Source of the DNA: Isoetes taiwanensis
Taxonomy: Eukaryota > Streptophyta > Lycopodiopsida > Isoetales > Isoetaceae
Assembly (NCBI GenBank): GCA_021234155.1
Contig: JAJEKV010000278.1
Location: forward strand, 62,001 to 126,000
Direction: 5' to 3'
Length of the DNA: 64,000 bases
Positions within the stretch are counted from its first letter, which is position 1. Every line of letters starts with the position of its first letter. Below the pieces are notes generated by a model that ran no database searches, was not told where the DNA came from, and saw only the letters and a program-made list of their open reading frames with translations. Positions 27,626 through 55,425 of this stretch are shown piece after piece. The translations under genes and the position numbers were made by a program.

Positions 27626-27928
27626 TTCCTCTTATGTTGATGTTACTGATGTTGTTGTTACAAATGTTATGTTATAGTGAGCCACCCTTCGAGGTGGATA
27701 TGTATGTTATTTGATGCTATGTGCTCATGTTTCATGTGCTTTCGCAGTTAGGTAGGTCCCGAGGGAGACGGCATGAATGACACGTCCATTCTTCCCCATC
27801 GGGTTCTTGCTCACCATCAAGGGCCCGATGATAGTTGGACGGCCTCGTGGCAGCGAGCTTGCACTGTCGGGAGAGATGAACTCCAGTTCTATACGATCAG
27901 GGCGTCGTATACGAGCAGGAACGTCACA
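27626..27928 (+). mobile_element. LTR 3' portion (same family as 39121-40656)
   Basis: From GTGAGCCACCCTTCGAGG to the end GGAACGTCACA, the sequence follows the minus strand of the LTR at 39121-40656, sharing CGCAG-TAGGTAGG, GGGATGAACTCC-like and CGTATACGA blocks. The upstream LTR part is missing, cut at the Helitron end. The terminal CA is directly followed by a primer-binding site. Confidence 0.75.
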
Positions 27929-27929
27929 T

Positions 27930-27941
27930 TGGTATCAGAGC
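27930..27941 (+). promoter_or_regulatory. tRNA-iMet primer-binding site
   Basis: TGGTATCAGAGC, complementary to the 3' end of plant initiator methionine tRNA, one base after the LTR end. The same site occurs at 39108-39119 (minus) and 34514 (Copia). Confidence 0.88.
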
Positions 27942-28177
27942 AATGATCTTGGAGGACCAAGATCGAGCACTGGCCATTTCTCTAGTAGTACTAATAGTCT
28001 AGATCTTCAATCTTGAAGTTGAAATCCCAAGCATGAACCTCGTGAAATGGGGAGGGGGAATTTTTTTTTTCCATCAGTAATGTAAAAGAGTTAAGCAAAA
28101 GAATTACTTAGCAAAAGTAAGTATGAAATTCTAGTAAAACTTAAAAAAAAAAAAAAAAAATGGCCACTAGAAAGTGA

Positions 28178-28246
28178 GTACTCACAGAGTGTGCCTGGAG
28201 CCATTTCTAAATTTTAGCTCCAGCATCTGGCGCACTGTGTGAGTAC
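28178..28246 (+). repeat. hairpin element copy 1
   Basis: GTACTCACAGAGTGTGCC at one end pairs with GGCGCACTGTGTGAGTAC at the other, with an AT-rich AAATTTTAGCT centre. It is one of six 65-70 bp copies in the window. Confidence 0.85.
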
Positions 28247-28394
28247 TCGACCTCCAAACTGTATCAAAATGAACCCAAAACTGAATTCATGTGTGAACCT
28301 AAAACTGGTGAATTCTGGCTCCACTCATCGAGTAGAGCAGGAAGATACCCTCATATCAAACTTTTGGAATCATCTAGGACCTAAACATGTGGCC

Positions 28395-28465
28395 ACTACT
28401 CACAGAGTGTGCCTGGAGCCCTACCTAAAATTTAGCTTTAGCCTCTAATGCATTATGTGAGTAGT
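28395..28465 (+). repeat. hairpin element copy 2
   Basis: ACTACTCACAGAGTGTGCC faces GCATTATGTGAGTAGT, with CCTAAAATTTAG in the middle. It lies about 150 bp after copy 1, similar to the spacing of the pairs near 36.9 and 38.8 kb. A TATA-like TTTATAAACAG at about 28635-28645 follows, so this is a third, disrupted promoter cassette. Confidence 0.85.
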
Positions 28466-28691
28466 CAAAATTTTGAACCTTCATAACTAGAGCTAGACAG
28501 CTCCAAATCGCCTGAAATTTGTTGCAATGGTCTAGAACTCATTTATGACCTCGAGTTAGGTTAGAAATGTCACACTCCACCTCAAAAGGACTAAAATTGC
28601 TCAAGCCCTAAATTTTGTTTTCCAAACTAGGGTTCTTTATAAACAGAAGCAATACCACATTGGGACCGTGCAAGTCCTTCTCTCAGCTCAA

Positions 28692-28695
<4 letters not shown>

Positions 28696-28722
<27 letters not shown>

Positions 28723-29119
28723 GGAGAAACGGCAGTGATTATATTATATTACATGCAAAAAGGTACATAGTAATACAAAATACAGAGAATAAACTCTGTT
28801 ATAAGGCCATATTTAAACAAAAACGGCCTATCGCTCCCAAGGAGGCTATTTTTAATAGACTAGAACACTGTTTGGATATGCAAGTCAAAGAAAGAAAGGA
28901 AATATTTTCAGCAGACCATCAAGATAAGTGTATCAGTGGCGAAATCAGTCATCCATAACTCCATCCAGAGTTATAATCGCATATGCTTGATCCGTGTACT
29001 TATTCAGCAGGTAATCCAGCTCCACAGCCCCATATGCAGACGCATCCAAAATATGAAGAATCCAGGACTCCCGCGCTCCCTCACAAATACCAAGCTTATC
29101 TTGGAAATACGGCTTGAGT
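28696..29119 (-). mobile_element. 5'-truncated L1-like LINE with 13-bp TSD
   Basis: TCAGCTCAAAGTT occurs at 28683-28695 and 29120-29132, and the left copy is followed by a T-run ending at 28722. On the minus strand 57 codons stay open from the truncation point to a stop: KPYFQDKLGICEGARESWIL, HILDASAYGAVELDYLLNKY, TDQAYAIITLDGVMDD. The pattern LD-Y-LD-LLN matches the C-terminus of the LINE ORF2 at 51.7 kb (LLLDFTNYRVDKLDLVLNIL), so it is the tail of ORF2. The insertion split the region behind the third hairpin cassette. Confidence 0.85.
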
Positions 29120-29132
29120 TCAGCTCAAAGTT

Positions 29133-32100
29133 GATGCCTTACTCCTCAATAAAAGTGCTCAAGAACATTCCTTTGTTATAGTCATCTAGACCCTCAGCAT
29201 AGCAACACAAGCTCAAATATTGGTACATCACCTCTTCTCATGCCAGAGGCGTAAACCTTGACCTAACTCTATTGTCTTTCCAATAGAATTTGACTTAACT
29301 GCCACATTGACACTCCCTGTTGTCAGGATATCTAGAAAGGAGCTAGAGTCTAGAGCTTCCCAATTGTTACTCCATGTGTAGAATATTGGAACCCCCCAAA
29401 ACCAACCTTTGCTAGGATCTCAGTGTATGTCCTAAACGTCATGAAGGCTTTGTAAAACAAAGCTCAGTTCATGCCAGACCACATGTCATAATGTCCATAG
29501 ACTTGAAGGATATAAGTATATCTCTATTAATACTGCCCGAGCCATTTTACTTGCTTATAGAGCCCAGAATGTTGTAGGAGAGCCTTCAAGTAGCCGTTTG
29601 ATCTGAACCCTTAGACTCTAGGATATACGAGCGTTTACTTTGGAGTACGAGGTTAGAGCCACAGAAGAGCAAGATGCACAACTTCTTGAAGACATTGAAG
29701 ACCAAGCGACGTACTGACAATCAAAGGGAGGAGAGTGAAAGGCAGGCCCAAAAGAGCGAAGCACAATAGAAAATACCTCTACCAACAAAACGAGTAGTAC
29801 AAGGGCACTACCGGCCTATCAGCAATCTTCATCGAATGGAAGATATATGTCAATCATTCGCATCAAGAATCTTTTGGACTGTCAAGCACTCGGCTGCAAC
29901 ATCCATGAGCTCACATCAGAAAGAAGATCTCGACCCCTTCACCGACTCAATGCATACGAGTTCAAATGGAAGAACGCAAGCAGAAACATACAGGTGAAGG
30001 AGTATATCAAATGGGGAAGCCTAGATTAGCATCACGAGCCAAGGTTGAAGAGCGTAATCTTCCGTCGAAATGACAATTCATAGCGACACAAGAGCGCAGA
30101 GAATCGGGGGAAAAACCACCACGATCTCGCAGCCTAGCAGCTCAAGCGGATGTCAAGAAATATCAACAAAAGGTGCGGTGCAACAGAGCTAGACAACTGC
30201 AAACCACTCAAGTTCGGCCATGACGAGCTTTTAGCTCCCTTGCACCAGTAAGAAGACGGTAATGACTTCATCGATTTCAAAAATAGGGGATCATGATGGA
30301 GGAAGGAGAAAGGACCCATATCAAGGGAGGAACATCTCCAACTTGAAGGCCAAGTAGTTTGAGACTCGAGTGGACCCAACCCAAAGGATGGAAGTGCCGA
30401 CCTAGCCAACAACTACAGACCACTCAAAGGCAACCCAGAGGAGCAATGTTATGTGCAATGGAAATGACCACACTTTCAGGCACTGGGGAGGCATCTTGCA
30501 AAGATAAAGTCTAAGCAACAGAAGTCGCGCTCACAAATTCAACCTGTGGAGAAATGACACCATCTACCTACCGATAGCCATCTCATAGCTTCCAAGGCAT
30601 GCTTGAATGACTGATTGCAACAACCAGGTGATCCTACTCAAGCAATCAATGGCACAACACATCTTCAACCTTGCAACAACACACCACATGTAGGGATGTC
30701 AAGCGGTCACCGTACTCCACATCATAGGTAAACACATTAAGGAGGAGCATGTTCCACTCGAAGGTTCACATCAAGGAACATTCTTCGCAACTTGGGATGA
30801 CAACCTCAGATCAGACACGAAGGTCAACTATAGTAGCAGCACCTCAAGGAACCTCGGAGTCAACCAGAATGAGGAATATGTAGCAAAATCGAGGAATTCA
30901 AACACGATAGGAGGAGGGGAAATCCTAAAGGAGTATAAACATTTAAGCATAACCTCTTATATAAATTAGAAAGGTGGATGAATTGAAATCCCAATGTAAG
31001 TGTGTATATACCTATTATATATATCGGGTGCTCACATATATAGTGTAGAAACACGAGTTTAGAGCCATTTTTTAGGGGTTTAGCGTTTAGATCGAGAGTC
31101 TCCATCACTTTGACGGCCAAAGGATGAAACAAAGAAACACAGCTATAGCCCAAGGTTAAGTTTTCGAATGGAAGAGCAAGTACGAGGGAAGACGACTAGA
31201 GCCCAAGCAAAGCTTCGACAACAAACACTTCGGGAAGCGGCCTCAAGTAGAAGATCATTCCTCCAGCAATGTCAGGATGAGAGACAATGCCGGTCATGTC
31301 AAGATCATTAGCACTGCACCATCTAGGTTTTGCACGACGACATCTTTGGGTCGCAACTCTACCTCCTGTGGCAGCAGCAATACTTGACAACCTTATGACA
31401 CGAGTGTCCTCAACAATAGAAAGATGAACGGCCCAATATCTTCAGAAACTGCGGCTACGACCTCAAGCCAACAGACATCGAGGAATTCTTCTAGACGACC
31501 CGACATGAACGAGCCAACTGAGGAGGCAACCTCTCGGTGACCATAACCCCCCCTTATAGTGACGTATGTTGATGTGTAACATGCGTGCGAGATGGAGATA
31601 CACTTATGAAAGGTGCCGCAGGGATGGGCTGTGCCTATGCTCATTCAACAACTAGGTGATGGCTTCGTCAAGTACTCCTACCAACAATTAGAAGAGAAGA
31701 CGCCAAACGTATCTCTGACATGATGGACCTCAACGCCCAAGATAGAAGCATTCGACATCTTAAGGACAAGGATAGCAACCAAAGCATCTTCAGCAAAAAG
31801 AGAGTTCAAGACAATATCCAGGCTATTCAAGGACAAGAGTAGATCTAGGGTAGAAATTTCTTCAACCCAAGGGCCAAGCTATGCAGATATAAGGGTACAT
31901 CATCCATGACAGCATAGCCATCGGGAAAGGAATCCATGAGGTTTTACTCGTCAGGGGGACGCAAATGCATTGAGGGACAAAGGCCACGGCCAGAAGCTGG
32001 AGAAATGCTAATACTTTCACGAGCTCCTTAGACGCAACATGAGGTTCAGAACTGTGGAGCGTGGTCAAGTTCAACTAGAAGATACCACAAGACTAAAAGG

Positions 32101-35275: not shown

Positions 35276-35423
35276 AAGGAAGGAAGGAAGGTTTTTTTAT
35301 CGTCCACGGAGACCAATCGGTATATGGGACCCAATACAAAAGCGCAGCAAGCGGATTACTACCCGGATTAAAAAACTCCCGCCCCGAAGGGTTTTCGAGG
35401 GAAGCGACCTGTCCCGGCTTGTC
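35266..35423 (-). mobile_element. SINE-like or RTE-type 3' end with (CCTT)n tail
   Basis: On the minus strand: CTCGAAAACCCTTCGGGGCG, AACCCGG, TTGCTGCGC, GGGTCCCATA, CGATTGGTCTCCGTGGACGA, then TAAAAAAA and repeated CCTT. A second copy lies at 55266-55425 with the same left and right limits but a (TCATTC)n tail. Equal limits and simple-repeat tails suggest a short interspersed element of about 115 bp, or the 3' end of an RTE-type LINE. It abuts the second ORF cassette of the H3 element on one side and the Copia gag on the other. Confidence 0.6.
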
Positions 35424-36470
35424 GCTGTTGATTCTTCGTCGGCTCGGGCACTGGTTCTATGTCTTCCCACATATTCATCGACGGGAATCTCCGTCAGGTC
35501 TCTGTGGTCCCTTATTGTTGAGGCGATTCTGGTCAGGTCGATCTCGCCTCTCCTTTGGACACCTGTGGGAGCTGGTGTCGAAGAACTTGGCATCAAAATA
35601 TTTGTGGTCTTGCCACGGATCCCCATCCGTTCTTGGATGGCGTAGAATTCTTCTTCTGAAGGCAGGTCCCGAGCTGTCATCATTTGCCGGATGCTGCTAT
35701 AAGCCTGAATATCTGAAGTTGACTCCCCGGTGTAGGTGTCGGCTTCCCTTACGTGGATTGGGAAGTCGGCTCCCTGGCTCTGCATTCGGGGAGGTTCTGG
35801 ATGTCACTTAGGAGCAGATACTCCTGGCCGTTGATGATGATGGGAGCTAGGCTTGTGATACCTAGCCCGAGTGGGGGAGCGATCCTGTGGGTCTGCAGGT
35901 CCTGGTCGAAAGACTGGATCTCCTGCTCTGCTTGTCGTCGCTCCTGTTCTGGGTCGAACTCGACGTAGTCTTCGTCGTCTGAGTCGAACTCTTCGTCTTC
36001 GGCTCTTCCTCCTTGCTCTGCTTGATACTGCAAGAGGAGCTGACCTTCTGCTGAAGAGGCTATGGGGTCCACATCTAAGGCCGGAATAGATGGTTCCCCG
36101 ATTGGGTTCAGGGCATGGTGAGAGAGAAAGATGGCTAAGGCAGCGGTATAGGAGAAATACTTGGTCCTATTTACTGTCATGACCATGTAGTCTGGCAACC
36201 TAGCAACTTTGTTGTTCAGGTACTTGGCAATGTTGGGGACATCACTCAAGGCTGCTTGGGAACAAAATATCTTGTACAGGGGGGAAGCTGTACTAAGGAA
36301 GGCCCTACCCTAGCTTGAAACTCAGTCATGACTTCCATGTAGGATGGGGTTGCTTGCAAGGTGGCTTGGATGTCTATCTCCTTCTGGAAAACTTGGAAAA
36401 TGGCATTGACATCTGCCTTAGCTACATGGGCACTGGCGCTGTACCATCGCCTGAAATCTGCAGTTGCCAT
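35424..36470 (-). CDS. unrecognised acidic protein of the H3-like LTR element (second cassette)
   Basis: The ATG at 36470 opens MATADFRRWYSASAHVAKAD and runs 75 codons to a stop at 36246. A second frame begins about 36249 with SDVPNIAKYLNNKVARLPDY and TKYFSYTAALAIFLSHHALN, then a strongly acidic part (EDEEFDSDDEDYVEFDPEQE) and IIINGQEYLLLSDIQNLPEC to 35749. A third frame (35785-35424) has SEEEFYAIQERMGIRGKTTN. The three frames overlap end to end, as expected for one protein interrupted by two small shifts. I do not recognise it. A TATA box (36590-36581) lies 111 bp upstream of the ATG, with two hairpin elements beyond it, a layout matching the H3-like gene next door. Confidence 0.55.
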
Positions 36471-36580: not shown

Positions 36581-36590
36581 TCTATTTATA
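36581..36590 (-). promoter_or_regulatory. TATA box of second cassette
   Basis: TATAAATAGA on the minus strand, followed by CCCCCGT. The H3-like cassette has TATAAGTAGACCC in the same relation to its ATG. Confidence 0.7.
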
Positions 36591-36783
36591 GGCAAAAGGA
36601 AAAAACCCTAATTTTTGGAAGACTTAGAAATTTTTTGAGTTGGGCAAATCTCACCTATTTTGAGGTCAAAATGAGGATTGGAAAGCTAATTTGAGGGTTT
36701 GAGCATGAGTAAGACTATCTAATCAACCTATTGCACAAACTCGAGGTCAATTGGAGGTGGCATGAGAGAGATAATGCTGAAAA

Positions 36784-36850
36784 TACTCACGGTGTGCGCT
36801 AGAGGGCTGACCTAAAATTTAGGTCGAGGTCCTGGCGTATACCGTGAGTA
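36784..36850 (-). repeat. hairpin element copy 3
   Basis: TACTCACGGTGTGCGC pairs with GCGTATACCGTGAGTA; the inner GACCTAAAATTTAGGTC is itself palindromic. About 310 bp upstream of the second-cassette ATG. Confidence 0.92.
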
Positions 36851-36985
36851 ATTTGGCCCTATTTGGTCAAAAGTTATCTAAACAGGATAAACTAAGAGTC
36901 AAAACATGATGGTCTCATCGAGAATGCAAGATTGACCCCTTACTTGAGCAGTTTGGAGGTGTTTAGGACCACTTTTGATGTGAAA

Positions 36986-37052
36986 TACTCACGGTGTGCG
37001 CCCAGGGCCTGACCTAATATTTAGGTCGATGCTCTGGCGTATACCGTGAGTA
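36986..37052 (-). repeat. hairpin element copy 4
   Basis: TACTCACGGTGTGCGC and GCGTATACCGTGAGTA with inner GACCTAATATTTAGGTC. About 200 bp from copy 3 and nearly the same sequence. Confidence 0.92.
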
Positions 37053-37196
37053 ACTTCTCACTTTTTGGCCATAAAATGTCCAATTTAACTAAAACAAAAG
37101 GCAATTATTGCTAACTCAACCTAATTAACAACATTTATGCACTTAGAATTTACTCAAAACAACTTTTTATTAACAAAATTTATTATTTACAAGGTT

Positions 37197-37810
37197 TTAT
37201 CTTTCTCCTTTAATATAGCTAGCTAACTGCATATCCTTGGTCATTAGGGTCACTCTCTTGGCATGCATGGTGCACGCTCTTGAGTCTTCAAAATGCTGCA
37301 CCAGCTTCTGCTCAGTTGCTTCTTGCAAGGCTAGCAGCATCTCGCCTGTGACCCTCATGCTCGTGTCGAATTCTTGCACGACCTCCTTCACGAGCCTGGC
37401 GAATGGTGCTCGGGGGATGAGAAGGCCGTAGCTTCTCTGAAAGTGTCGGATCTCTCGGACGGCTTGTGATAGTTTTGAGCCGGCTTTCCTGGCTATTGGC
37501 TTCTTCGGGGGAATGGGTTTCTCAGGAGGTGGCTTGAGAGCCTTCTTCTTCGATGGCCATCTTCCTTCGATGTACGTGACCTTGTTCGCCTGATAGTAGG
37601 AGTTGTATGCCTCCCACTTCTTCATGAATTCCTGGTACGCCTTTAGCTTCTTCTAATAGACCCTGCGATGGTCTACCACATAAGACTCCCGGGCAGGTCG
37701 GGGTGGCTTCTTCGGATCTTTGTCCTTCTCCCACGTTGGGTAGGATGGGGGTGCTTGTACCTGCCGATCCCGGTCTGTCCGATCCTCATCTGCAGGTCTG
37801 GAGGGGCTCC
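37197..37810 (-). pseudogene. Histone H3 fold domain of H3-like LTR-element protein
   Basis: The last 91 or so residues are unmistakably a histone H3 fold: QAVREIRHFQRSYGLLIPRA, PFARLVKEVVQEFDTSMRVT, LLALQEATEQKLVQHFEDSR, ACTMHAKRVTLMTKDMQLAS, ending YIKGER. Canonical H3 has REIRKYQKSTELLI, PFQRLVREIAQDF, ALQEA-E--LVGLFED and [20 protein letters not shown] in the same order and spacing, with no extra loop-1 residues. A basic linker (WPSKKKALKPPPEKPIPPKK) and a helical stretch (KLKAYQEFMKKWEAYNSYYQ) precede it. The frame extends upstream to 37810 apart from one TAG at 37655-37653, and it overlaps the end of the H3-tail ORF in a different frame. Nucleosomal use would need this domain; whether the product is made in full here is doubtful. 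Confidence 0.9.
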
Positions 37811-38446
37811 CTACTTCTTGATGAGGATTGTATCTTCATCATCTGAGTCGTCGAAGGATGGGGGCTGGTCGGGCGGCTGTTCGTTGATGACGATTTTGGT
37901 CAGTGGCGTCTTCTTGAGCTTCCTCTTGGGCTCCTCCTTGTCTTTGCCCTTGAGTTTCTTCTTCTCCTCCGCCTCCTGCTCCTCTCGCTTTCTTTTCTTC
38001 TCGGCCTTTCTCCTTTTCTTGCACTGTAGCTTTGCCTTCTGGATTTGGATCCAGGCCTCGAGTTCTTCCTCCAGGGTCGGCTCGGGAGTTGGCTCCTTCT
38101 GCTCCTCCTGCTTTTTAGCAGCCTGCTCCTGTTCTGCTCTCTCTTGTTGTTGTATCTCCTCTTCAATTTCCTCGAATACTTCTTGAGTTTCCTCATCTGT
38201 TGAGCCCTCTGCTTCCACCTCTGCTTCTTCTAAGTCCTGGTTGATGAGGTCAGCCAGGTCTTCTAGTGATCTTTGCTCGGATCCCTCCTCCTGTAGCTCC
38301 TCTGAAATACTCTCCTCAGCTGATGGAAGTTCGTCTCCTCGAGCGAGAAGCTGCTCTCGAAGTAGCTGCTGTATGCGCCTCTTATCTTGGACGCTGGGCT
38401 GTTCGCCTGGTCGATACTTCCGAGCAGTTTGTTTGGTGCACGCCAT
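37811..38446 (-). CDS. H3-tail-like N-terminus with acidic and lysine-rich region
   Basis: The ATG at 38446 gives MACTKQTARKYRPGEQPSVQ. After Met removal, residues 1-9 are ACTKQTARK against ARTKQTARK of histone H3; K4, R8 and K9 are kept, R2 becomes C and S10 becomes Y. RPG echoes the YRPG that precedes the H3 fold. Residues about 40-120 are very acidic (EAEVEAEGSTDEETQEVFEE), and about 135-195 are lysine/arginine-rich coiled coil (KKRRKAEKKRKREEQEAEEK). The ORF stops after DDEDTILIKK at 37811, and the H3 fold follows at once in another frame, so the two are read as one gene split by a frameshift or by an unseen splice. The start is supported by a TATA box 105 bp upstream. Confidence 0.75.
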   Translation of the reverse strand: MACTKQTARKYRPGEQPSVQDKRRIQQLLREQLLARGDELPSAEESISEELQEEGSEQRSLEDLADLINQDLEEAEVEAEGSTDEETQEVFEEIEEEIQQQERAEQEQAAKKQEEQKEPTPEPTLEEELEAWIQIQKAKLQCKKRRKAEKKRKREEQEAEEKKKLKGKDKEEPKRKLKKTPLTKIVINEQPPDQPPSFDDSDDEDTILIKK

Positions 38447-38550
38447 GCTTTACTTCACGTCGATCGGAGCTCTGGCGCCCAAAAATCGCCTTGAAATGCG
38501 GGAGCTAACTTCTAGACAGGAAGTCTACAAATGAGAGGGGTTTGGGTCTA

Positions 38551-38556
38551 CTTATA
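38551..38556 (-). promoter_or_regulatory. TATA box of H3-like cassette
   Basis: ACTATAAGTAGACCCAAACC on the minus strand, 105 bp before the ATG. The downstream leader (GGCGATTTTTGGGCGCCAG) resembles that of the second cassette (GGTGATTTTCCAGCTCCC). Confidence 0.65.
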
Positions 38557-38658
38557 GTTTGGCAAATTTTAGGTCAAATTCTAAGTTGCTCATTTTCATG
38601 TGTCAAAGCACCTATTAACTTAAAACATGTACTTTCTTTAGAGTTTTCTAAGCAATTT

Positions 38659-38725
38659 TACTCATGGTGTGCGCTAGAGGGCTGATCTAATATTTAGATC
38701 AAGGCTCTGGCGCATACTGTGAGTA
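38659..38725 (-). repeat. hairpin element copy 5
   Basis: TACTCATGGTGTGCGC and GCGCATACTGTGAGTA with inner GATCTAATATTTAGATC. About 210 bp upstream of the H3-like ATG. Confidence 0.92.
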
Positions 38726-38871
38726 ATTTTGCATTTTTGACTAAAATTATATAACTTCTAGACATATTCCTAGGGGTATGATATACAAATCTAACTAATT
38801 CTTACCTTAAAACTCGATCTAGCATATTATCTTGTTAAAATTCATCAAGTTTCAAGGTGATTATGGCCAGT

Positions 38872-38937
38872 TACTCATGGTGTGCGCCGGGGGCTCAATC
38901 TAAATTTAGGTTGATGCTCTGGCGCATACCATGAGCA
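38872..38937 (-). repeat. hairpin element copy 6
   Basis: TACTCATGGTGTGCGCC and GGCGCATACCATGAGCA with CTAAATTTAG in the centre, about 210 bp from copy 5. Confidence 0.9.
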
Positions 38938-39107
38938 ATTTCCACACTTAGTGAGATTTTAGTTCGATTTCTAACTGTTACTAGCTTAGCATAAACTACA
39001 AAAAATGAGAAAAAAAAATTTCCCACTTTTTCGAGGTTTGAGAATTCTACTAAGTTAGTACTACTGGGAGCATGGCCTGTGCTTCGCTCTTGGTGTCCAA
39101 GAACATT

Positions 39108-39120
39108 GCTCTGATACCAC
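39108..39120 (-). promoter_or_regulatory. tRNA-iMet primer-binding site of H3-like element
   Basis: Minus strand GTGGTATCAGAGC, starting at the base next to the LTR end. It fixes the element orientation: LTR on the right, interior to the left. Confidence 0.9.
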
Positions 39121-40656
39121 TGTGACGTCCCCTACTCATATACGGTGCACTCATCGTATACAAACAGGAGTTCATCCCCCATACCAGCTCCATGCTGACA
39201 CAAGGCCCTCCACGTATCACTGCAACCTTGACGAGTTCCAGTGGGAAGAATGAAGGGGTCATTTTACCCTGTCTCCCTCAGGGCCTACCTAGCTGCGGAA
39301 GCGTAAACATACATGTAAGTACCAATACATCAACATCACATGACCATCACGAAGGATGGCTCACCACATATCTGCATAGATAAAGATCAGTACATCACAT
39401 ATGGAGATCCTACCCAAGGCTCAGACTCAAGGGGGATGACTGACGGCTTGGGTCTCCAGAAGTCATTGCAGACAGAATTCATGGCAAATGGATTTGGCTG
39501 GCATAAGAACATGGCTTAGGGTAGTCCACTCCATTCGCCCCTCCTGTGAACACTTTGCAGAGTAGGTTGAAAGGTCTTGGGACTTGACTGTAGCCGGCCG
39601 GATGCATAGCCAAAAGGGCTACTCCTGGGTTGCATCTCCCCAGTTCCGATGGGGCAGGTAGGGATTGCTCCCACCAGAGGCTGACATGCTGACTCAAGGT
39701 GACTAGAGGGCTACTGCCCGTACTCGACTGAACTCCATGGAAGGTGTACACCACCCCAAGAGTGTCGAACCCATGCAAAGCCCGCACGCAGTGGCAGAGC
39801 ATTAGGTCTAGTGCACTGTAGTCCCCGATAGGCTTTACTACCAGAGGGACGTGATCATGAGTCAGGACATGAACCTCCTTGTAAGCCAGTCTGGCCTCTC
39901 CACCCACAATCAGGTGTGGCTCTTGTACACAGGCCGAATTTAATAGTACATTAAAGAGGGCTAGCTAGGAGCATCAACTACTAGGCTTTTAAGGCCTCTA
40001 CCCCCCTTCCTAATACAATGATTCCACAGAGATCATCATCACATACATATCATAGAAGAACTAAAGAATAAGATTTAATCTAAATCACAGAGTTAGGTTC
40101 TTTAGTTATGGCTTGATATCTAGAGGTCTAGATGGCTGCTATGGGCAATTCAATAGGCTAAACCTACTTACACGATGCCTGGGAGCCGGATTAGACTATT
40201 GAATTGGCAAAATACCTGATCCCTGGCTTGCTCCTCCTGCTCTGAATGCGTCCATGCTGCAGACTGCTTGAAGATGAAGCTAGAAAGGGGGCTAATGAGC
40301 TAGGCTGCTCAGACAGACTTCGGGAGTCAAGATTGGCTCTTGGAGCAAGCAAAACGGAGTTCTAGAAGGCTGTGGACGAAAATGGAAAGTTAGGGTTTTA
40401 GATGCCTTATATAGACTATAAGTTAGGGCTAGGGTTTCTATTAACCCTTGAGCATGTGGGATAAATGGGTGTGGCCCAATTAATTAAGTGGGCTAAAGTG
40501 TACACATGAATAAATGTGCACACACTTGCAAGTTGCCCCCTAGGGTGCTACTTGCTTAGCTAAACGTCGGCGTACGCGTCAATCAGGATGGCGTGTACGC
40601 GTGACGATGCAGTACAGTATACGTCCTGGGACTGTATACTGTGCTGGAACGTCACA
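39121..40656 (-). mobile_element. 5' LTR of H3-like element (about 1.54 kb)
   Basis: On the minus strand it begins TGTGACGTTCCAGCACAG (40656) and ends GGGGACGTCACA (39121), so the ends are TG...CA with matching TGTGACGT/ACGTCACA. It resembles the 57320-58980 LTR over long stretches (for example GGCTCAGACTC, GTCCACTCCAT-CGCCCCTCCTGTG, ACTTTGCAGA), so the two belong to one family. Plant Ty3/gypsy elements commonly have LTRs of this size. No second LTR is found to the left, so the element is truncated at about 35.42 kb. Open frames inside it (such as 39479-39907) are not genes. Confidence 0.88.
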
Positions 40657-48802: not shown

Positions 48803-49258
48803 GGGAAAAACTCTGAAATACCCTTATGTTTTGCTAAAATTAACAAAACGCCCCTAGTTTTTGGGGTATTTTAATGGAAATGATCATAACTTTTTTGTGA
48901 TGATCCAAATGAGAATGAGCCTTTCAGAGCTATTGTAAAGGAGGATGAGATCTTTCCATCAAAGTTAACATCTCCTGAATTGAAATCCGAAATCTCAAGT
49001 TATGGTCTTGTAAATCCCTCTGAAATTTCTACAATTTTCTTGTGTATTCAAAAAAGCATAACTTGTGATTTAAGACTCCGATTTATATGATTTTACCTTT
49101 GATGAAAAGATCTCATCCTCCTTTATAATAGCTCTAAAAGGCTCATTCTCATTTGGATTATCACAAAAAAGTTATGATCATTTCCATAAAAATACCCCCA
49201 AAACTAGGGGCATATTGTTAATTTTAGCAAAACATAAGGGTATTTCAGAGTTTTTCCC
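48803..49258. mobile_element. MITE, near-complete palindrome
   Basis: GGGAAAAACTCTGAAATACC at the left end is the exact inverse of GGTATTTCAGAGTTTTTCCC at the right. The arms run about 210 bp each: AGGAGGATGAGATCTTT faces AAAGATCTCATCCTCCT type text, leaving only a short loop. Flanking A-runs (AAAAAAAA) could be the target duplication. No ORF. A transcript would fold into a long hairpin. Confidence 0.92.
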
Positions 49259-55265: not shown

Positions 55266-55425
55266 AAGAAAAAAGAAAAAAGAAAAAGAGAATGAGAATG
55301 AGAATGAGAATGATTTTTTATCGTCCACTAAGGCCAATCGGCCTATGGGACCCATAAGGAGCGCAGCAAACTTATTACTGTCCGGGTTAAAAAACCCTCG
55401 CCCCGAAGGGTTTTCGAGGGAAAAA
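55266..55425 (-). mobile_element. SINE-like or RTE-type 3' end with (TCATTC)n tail
   Basis: Second copy of the unit at 35266-35423: CTCGAAAACCCTTCGGGGCG, TTAACCCGGACAGTAATAAG, GGCCGATTGGCCTTAGTGGA, CGATAAAAAA, then TCATTC repeats and an A/T-rich tract. The neighbouring sequence differs between copies, supporting a short independent element. Confidence 0.6.

Follow-up and report, generated by a model that had tools for sequence, protein, structure and literature searches.

A long-tailed histone H3 gene in a multicopy Ty3/gypsy chromovirus family of Isoetes taiwanensis

We found that an H3-fold open reading frame in a 64,000-nucleotide stretch of the Isoetes taiwanensis genome (the whole stretch analysed, hereafter the window) belongs to a long-tailed histone H3 gene, which a multicopy Ty3/gypsy chromovirus almost certainly carries as an accessory gene. 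The gene consists of an H3 tail, a charged linker of about 300 residues, and an H3 fold. Within the family, it is placed after the primer site and ahead of gag, with a TATA box and poly(A)-signal-like sites of its own. The best explanation overall, to which we assign a probability of roughly 0.75, is that the gene is a selected accessory gene of the chromovirus and that its protein would enter nucleosomes, or the deposition pathway, on element DNA.

The H3 gene and its element in the window

The ORF at 37197-37625 on the minus strand encodes 142 aa and matches the Pfam Histone family with 93.7 bits (E = 1.3e-26), so both the H3 fold that the preliminary description had placed here and its significant similarity to H3 stand. 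Among the best 60 of 189 PDB matches, the top ones are nucleosomal H3 (E ~2e-25). An AlphaFold model built on a 13-row alignment has helices at the expected alpha-N, alpha-1, alpha-2, and alpha-3 positions; it is modest overall (mean pLDDT 65.6), with the core helix blocks at 88-93. A Foldseek search with this model retrieved H3 chains from nucleosomes, most of them 52-53% identical to it across 90 columns. The similarity of the ORF to histone H3 is far above chance. Across 37 copies, the commonest residue is that of canonical plant H3 at 48 of 92 fold positions, which agrees with the earlier estimate that roughly half the residues differ, and the alignment confirms that loop 1 has the same length as in H3, with no insertion.

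An upstream ORF (38446-37811, minus strand) starts with MACTKQTARK and continues into a charged linker. Because it starts with the H3 N-terminal tail, we regard the two ORFs as one broken gene, with a frameshift and an in-frame stop lying between the tail/linker ORF and the fold ORF. Another copy has an unbroken 416-codon frame (Pfam histone E = 7.4e-23). An intron in place of the frameshift was considered and, from the comparison of frames alone, judged unlikely, because the sequence between both breaks encodes the same protein in the uninterrupted copy. The bounds given in the preliminary description thus have to be revised, as the gene reaches 38446 and the H3 tail upstream of the linker had been overlooked; the fold itself, the LTR (ending at 39121), and the tRNA-iMet primer site (39108-39119) are all present as described. 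We take the primer-binding site to be the complement of the tRNA-iMet 3' end. The features are as follows:

39121..40656, minus strand: 5' LTR of 1536 bp, TGTGACGT...GACGTCACA; ends predicted from sequence; same unit, whole or partial, in 19/20 other copies and at both ends of the L027 element
39108..39119, minus strand: primer-binding site TGGTATCAGAGC, separated from the LTR by one base; exact match in the window copy and in 17/20 others
38652..38941, minus strand: two imperfect palindromes of ~67 bp upstream of the H3 gene; similar region in 20/20 other copies
38548..38557, minus strand: TATA box CTATAAGTAG of the H3 gene; CTATAAATAG or CTATAAGTAG in 21/21 copies
37197..38446, minus strand: long-tailed histone H3 gene; one frameshift and one in-frame stop in the window copy
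38417..38446, minus strand: H3 N-terminal tail MACTKQTARK, the start of the upstream ORF
37197..37493, minus strand: H3 fold, alpha-N to C-terminal GER (Pfam E = 1.3e-26)
37166..37184, minus strand: two AATAAA poly(A)-signal-like sites directly past the H3 stop; AATAAA in 20/21 copies
36780..37057, minus strand: second palindrome pair, in the gene 2 promoter region; found under a strict arm criterion in 19/21 copies
36582..36591, minus strand: TATA box CTATAAATAG of gene 2; present in 14/21 copies
35404..36470, minus strand: gene 2, broken frames, cut at 35404; homologous stretch in 18/20 other copies
35287..35403, minus strand: LINE-like 3' tail of 117 bp that truncates the element and is foreign to the family; 84% identical to 55308-55422

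Read in the minus sense, the order is LTR, one base, primer site, leader, two palindromes, TATA box, and H3 gene, followed by two AATAAA sites, two palindromes, a TATA box, gene 2, the LINE-like tail, and a Copia gag. The 64-kb window holds an incomplete copy with a single LTR; neither a second one nor a gag-pol belonging to the H3 element was found there. The match of the LINE-like tail, at 55308-55422, sits downstream of a LINE reverse transcriptase, and we interpret the tail as an insertion into the window copy. Its position after gene 2 raised a non-LTR origin of the H3 unit, which was rejected because other copies continue into gag-pol. Gene 2 had no Pfam match above the cut-off and no relative among 2882 candidates, and its structure model was unusably poor (pLDDT 42).

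Other features of the window were noticed. The LTR start at 40656 sits within a plus-strand LINE reverse transcriptase frame, and two related LTR insertions (40656 and 57320) each adjoin reverse transcriptase frames of similar LINE type, through either chance or target preference. The LTR at 39121-40656 (minus strand) contains an open frame of ~150-160 codons, with similar frames in L010, L011, L012, L015, L018, L021, and L028. A decayed LTR element on the plus strand (27633-30150) resembles the H3 element in its LTR end, primer site, pair of palindromes, and TATA-like site, and it retains gene 2 remnants. It yielded no H3 by tblastn, a point against the best explanation given above, and represents either a related family lacking the gene or one from which it was lost. 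A 456-bp stretch at 48803-49258 is 86% identical to its own reverse complement.

H3-bearing element families in the genome

We searched the host genome (1.658 Gb, 1110 contigs) and found the H3 gene at 40 scored loci including the window (40 scored of 2066 first-look candidates), the others being 76-94% identical to the window and the copies lying on many contigs. A 36-mer from the linker, with up to 3 mismatches, occurs at 368 genome places, whereas the reversed control gave 0. From the 20 loci that matched best apart from the window (L009-L028), we fetched stretches of 9991 bases; all family copies were found through their H3 gene, so its presence in them is by choice. An LTR, whole or partial, accompanies the gene in 19/20 of these copies, the palindrome region of the H3 promoter in 20/20, the promoter region of gene 2 in 19/20, and gene 2 itself, whole or partial, in 18/20. 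The suggestion that LTR elements elsewhere in this genome might share the ORF has thus been upheld, and its recurring neighbours mark the gene as a feature of the element. The 40 loci and these neighbours, together with the purifying selection described below, rule out a captured pseudogene confined to one locus.

The family layout is LTR, palindromes, H3 gene, gene 2, and then Ty3/gypsy gag-pol. Gag is readable in 13/20 and the reverse transcriptase (RT) in 12/20 fetched copies. Pfam places gag, Ty3 capsid, protease, and RT of L013 together in a single frame of 941 aa; RNase H and the integrase H2C2 domain occur in L019, L020, and L027, two of which (L019 and L027) also have the integrase core. 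These four copies give the order gag, then PR-RT-RH-INT, which is absent from the truncated window copy. The L027 integrase terminates in a Tf2-1-like SH3 domain and a chromodomain (PF00385, E = 5.8e-10, in L045), and near-identical chromodomain residues are readable in L047, so that the chromodomain was seen in two copies. The L027 element (continued in L045), the only copy read to its end, has a PPT-like tract, a 3' LTR, and the target duplication GGACC on both sides. Its LTR pair is 96.3% and 95.7% identical in two pieces, and the K2P distance of 0.033 over 1543 sites corresponds to ~1.3 million years at an assumed rate of 1.3e-8 substitutions per site and year.

Two local arrangements were observed. 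Five H3 elements lie within ~113 kb of one contig (C907:37409952-37522130) at spacings of about 22, 33, 33, and 22 kb; they are probably not independent insertions, because the spacing resembles segmental duplication. In L046, the integrase of the L023 element is followed by another gene 2 and more gag-pol frames without an intervening LTR match, which points to either a rearranged or a tandem element.

Under the strict arm criterion, 21 copies contain 47 palindromes, of which 13 precede the H3 gene (in 11 copies) and 34 precede gene 2 (in 19 copies). None occurs elsewhere in the 21 stretches, and shuffled sequence yields ~3 per same length. A TATA box was found before the H3 gene in all 21 copies and before gene 2 in 14, and in four of the seven misses the scanned interval was wrong; L016 is the copy without AATAAA after the H3 gene. 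For six window palindromes (four of the H3 element and two of the 27.6 kb element), 5 of 23 arm pairs changed on both sides, a number reached by 78 of 500 shuffles, and the covariation score is 0.188 versus 0.125 in shuffled sequence (2/500 as high) and at most 0.072 when slid. The palindromes may be binding sites or hairpins that couple the H3 gene and gene 2 in one regulatory scheme.

A second LTR family in the same genome also bears an H3-fold gene (LTR end read in one copy). Searching the genome with canonical H3 gave 10117 candidates, 150 of which were scored: 15 formed a canonical group (E <= 5.9e-77), and the other 135 had E values from 4.6e-51 to 7.5e-44, many within open frames of 400-567 aa. 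Six of the 135, picked for their long frames, encode proteins of 409-425 aa that start with MANTK, MAITK, or MANIK; their N-terminal part is unlike that of family 1, and their H3 fold is near canonical (Pfam 2.8e-41). In the one copy read with its upstream flank (L048), the gene is preceded by an LTR-like end, GCGTCACA, and by a primer site identical to that of family 1; this copy has none of the palindromes described above. A gene-2-like stretch with weak collinear similarity (best E = 2.5e-4) follows the second-family H3 gene. A 36-mer from the fold has 192 genome places (control 0), among which other H3 genes may count. Over the six ORFs, dN/dS is 0.045 in the fold and 0.178 in the rest. 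This family lacks the ARTKQTARK tail; a modifiable tail is therefore no general requirement.

Constraint on the H3 gene and its relatives

Among readable copies of family 1, the tail keeps K4 in 32/34, K9 in 35/36, and R2 in 24/31. MARTKQTARK is exact in 16 of the 29 copies readable at all ten positions, and the window has MACTKQTARK; the ARTKQTARK tail is thus present, though ~300 residues separate it from the fold. Within the fold, H113 (35/35), K115 (36/36), R116 (35/36), and D123 (34/35) are kept, which we take to be H3-H3' and H3-DNA contact residues. Compared with canonical H3, R63 is changed to P (36/36), L65 to A (36/37), Q68 to A (36/37), and K79 to D (36/37), and the chaperone-recognition stretch 87-90 is altered, mostly to EMLL. 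The divergence from canonical H3 at about half of the fold positions, R63, L65, K79, and 87-90 among them, could mean exclusion from ordinary nucleosomes.

We aligned 37 copies (20 long, 16 gene-only, and the window) in the frame of one uninterrupted copy; two of them are free of frameshifts and stops. Pooled NG86 estimates over 666 pairs, which are non-independent and mix replication with decay, give dN/dS values of 0.102 for the fold (codon bootstrap 0.067-0.144) and 0.241 for the linker (0.199-0.280). The first 12 codons, i.e., the tail, give 0.191 (630 pairs), a value from just 12 codons and with no interval. The comparison between copies that the preliminary description had proposed is thus contrary to neutral decay. 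In the set of 20 long loci, where each gene could be read in 12-20 copies, dN/dS is 0.122 in the fold (0.079-0.175), 0.206 in gag (0.128-0.329), 0.251 in the linker, 0.303 in gene 2 (17 copies), 0.305 in the protease, and 0.419 in RT. The H3 fold has the lowest ratio of the genes measured, with an interval that overlaps that of gag. Because the RT ratio is high, many differences must be post-insertion, so all ratios are mixtures.

The ratio of nonsynonymous to synonymous changes in the fold is 2.13 for singletons versus 0.47 for shared variants, and the fold ratio is 0.86 in close pairs (dS < 0.10, 14 pairs) and 0.098 in distant ones (dS > 0.25, 631 pairs). These patterns indicate that shared fold differences, having arisen in replicating lineages, are filtered and that private ones, mostly post-insertion, are unfiltered, and they argue that the H3 fold is under purifying selection in replicating lineages.

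Between copies (L009-L028 and window positions 37197-38446), the H3 gene has a mean identity of 84.5% (transversions 0.057). In the same copies, the LTR (92.0%, transversions 0.028), the palindrome regions (~90%), and RT (92.4%, 0.020) are less diverged. Does the high divergence of a gene with a constrained fold reflect older H3 alleles retained through recombination between lineages?

A protein search revealed other proteins, known from protein sequence alone, that combine MARTKQTARK or a near form with a long unrelated linker and an H3 fold. The long-tailed H3 proteins form groups A (P0028 and relatives), B (P0013, P0015, and P0024), C (P0039 and P0054), and D (P0062 and relatives). The linkers of groups A and B had no match in the host genome, an empty result that tells little without a positive control. 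No relatives of the H3 protein or of gene 2 were found in the scanned viral contigs or in the phage search, and a profile search, swamped by canonical H3, showed nothing new among the best 120 of 7906 matches. Two proteins that turned up alongside the long-tailed ones (P0029 and P0043) have both an H3 fold and a Ulp1-type peptidase domain (PF02902).

Family 1 joins group B with support of 94/92 when represented by the window alone and 99/99 with eight copies, and family 2 groups with canonical plant H3 (97/76). The second tree included 8 of the 37 family-1 copies and left out P0042, P0068, P0029, and P0067, which have long branches. Neither families 1 and 2 as one clade (AU test, p = 0.09) nor all long-tailed H3 sequences as one clade (p = 0.215) is rejected, and the two families go back to either one or two H3 captures.

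Possible roles, known systems, and meaning

In the mechanism we propose, a plausible one along lines already raised in the preliminary description, the element H3 would pair with host H4 and, on element DNA, be built into nucleosomes or at a minimum enter the pathway that deposits H3-H4. There, the charged linker and the modifiable ARTKQTARK tail would confer an element-specific chromatin state, which would counter silencing or mark a landing site for the element's own chromodomain integrase. We infer that the protein would enter H3-H4 complexes and nucleosomes, since constraint falls on the fold and the H3-H3' contact residues, and that it would affect element chromatin, since the tail retains K4 and K9 and the integrase has a chromodomain. 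For the specific proposal that pairing with host H4 gives rise to element-specific chromatin, we put the odds a little below even.

Rather less probable is that the protein is not built into nucleosomes and acts as a decoy, likened to histone mimics, whose H3-like tail and fold would occupy host H3 chaperones, H3K9/K4 methyltransferases, or readers and so weaken silencing of the element. Selection on the tail (dN/dS over the first 12 codons, and K9 kept in all but one readable copy) fits such a role, and the ~300-residue linker and the altered 87-90 stretch suit an ordinary nucleosome badly. Yet constraint is stronger on the fold than on the tail (0.102 vs 0.191, the latter from 12 codons without an interval), a tail decoy has no need of H113, R116, and D123, and the second family has no such tail.

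We consider it unlikely that the H3-fold protein is a packaging or targeting factor, which would condense cDNA within the particle or pre-integration complex, or tether the integrase there to H4 and nucleosomes, without lasting deposition. The chromodomain at the integrase C-terminus of the same family would agree with a targeting role; our impression is that it is of type II, for which the accessible part of a plant LTR survey describes the partner as not identified (Neumann et al. 2019, PMC6317226). However, a gag with a capsid domain is present, and instead of being fused to gag the H3 gene comes with a TATA box and poly(A)-signal-like sites of its own.

The element H3 is very improbably a retroelement-borne CENH3 that marks or targets centromeres. 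Its LLIP, APF.RLV, and KDMQLA motifs resemble plant CENH3, and the AU test leaves a clade of family 1 and plant CENH3 unrejected in the first (p = 0.259) and the second tree (p = 0.329). The best trees nevertheless place family 1 elsewhere, with the long-tailed H3 proteins (99/99), and the second family with canonical H3. The missing loop-1 insertion, which the preliminary description had already noted, the H3-like KQTARK tail, and the spread of copies over many contigs also argue against it.

A host H3 captured once and riding along under neutral decay has a next to negligible chance: the window copy and most others are broken (all but two of the 37), and host-gene capture by LTR elements is known (PMC7264820, in the part available), but the fold ratio of 0.102, the drop from 2.13 in singletons to 0.47 in shared variants, and the two H3-bearing families in one genome contradict it; a low ratio produced by gene conversion from host H3 would fit poorly with a match to canonical H3 at just 48 of 92 fold positions.

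The element resembles plant chromoviruses in its LTRs, tRNA-iMet-type primer site, gag-PR-RT-RH-INT order, chromodomain, and 5-bp target duplication. Unlike them, it has two additional genes after the primer site and before gag, both preceded by palindromes and a TATA box; the H3 gene comes first. Plant CENH3 shares the H3 fold and some residues (LLIP, APF) with the element H3, which, unlike CENH3, has a canonical KQTARK tail and no loop-1 insertion, is multicopy, and lies within an LTR element. VANC of Arabidopsis VANDAL21 offers a possible likeness as an element gene acting against its own silencing; it is a transposon-encoded anti-silencing, DNA-binding protein of a DNA transposon and unlike a histone.

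The carriers of viral histones are, as a group, DNA viruses. Like the mobile genome of our element, the viral ones encode a core histone (a single H3 in xenomavirus and sylvanvirus, H4 in bracovirus; PMC9145170, available portion), from which the element H3 differs by the long spacer between tail and fold; the main text of that review, as far as available, contains no retrotransposon or retrovirus terms. A host-type domain kept in many copies is also found in plant LTR elements with additional ORFs (PMC7264820) and in orchid Gypsy elements, which carry an m6A demethylase domain (PMC9289625), according to the available parts of both sources. In the former, the available text places additional ORFs mostly between pol and the 3' LTR; the H3 gene here is upstream of gag. 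The latter reports 15 extra LTR-element domains from a screen of 121 angiosperms; there is no histone among the nine named in the available screen section, and "histone" occurs twice in the main text, in another sense. In the available main texts, the word is absent from studies of rotifer LTR-element ORFs (PMC5408684), accessory domains (PMC6338049), and Retand (PMC11963269), and occurs once in the plant LTR survey, for chromodomain binding (PMC6317226). The literature searched, which extended to neither subscription papers nor bioRxiv preprints, held no report of a retrotransposon-borne histone gene. The element appears to be of a known type, a chromovirus, with a new H3 cargo.

A wider reading, on which the odds lean clearly against us, is that there is a class of plant LTR retrotransposons that carry and refine their own core histone, with element-made chromatin that would be read by their own integrase or would block silencing. 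It would comprise at least two families here and, probably, further lineages elsewhere, as represented by the long-tailed H3 proteins. Nucleosomes containing the element H3 would form on the element, which would then be both a writer and a reader of chromatin. At a practical level, "histone H3" matches in plant genomes can be transposon genes: 135 of the 150 scored here lie far below the canonical group, and of the six of these that were read, the one followed far enough upstream has an LTR end and a primer site.

Few host genes are guarded as closely as those for core histones. An H3 kept by a retrotransposon under strong selection would mean that a mobile element acts at the nucleosome, where plants silence transposons. 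The element H3s are natural divergent variants for probing which residues are needed for deposition, tail modification, and chaperone choice, and they are candidate partners for the chromodomain of the same element, which renders the chromatin arms race directly testable. Together, this suggests a retrotransposon equipped to act on chromatin.
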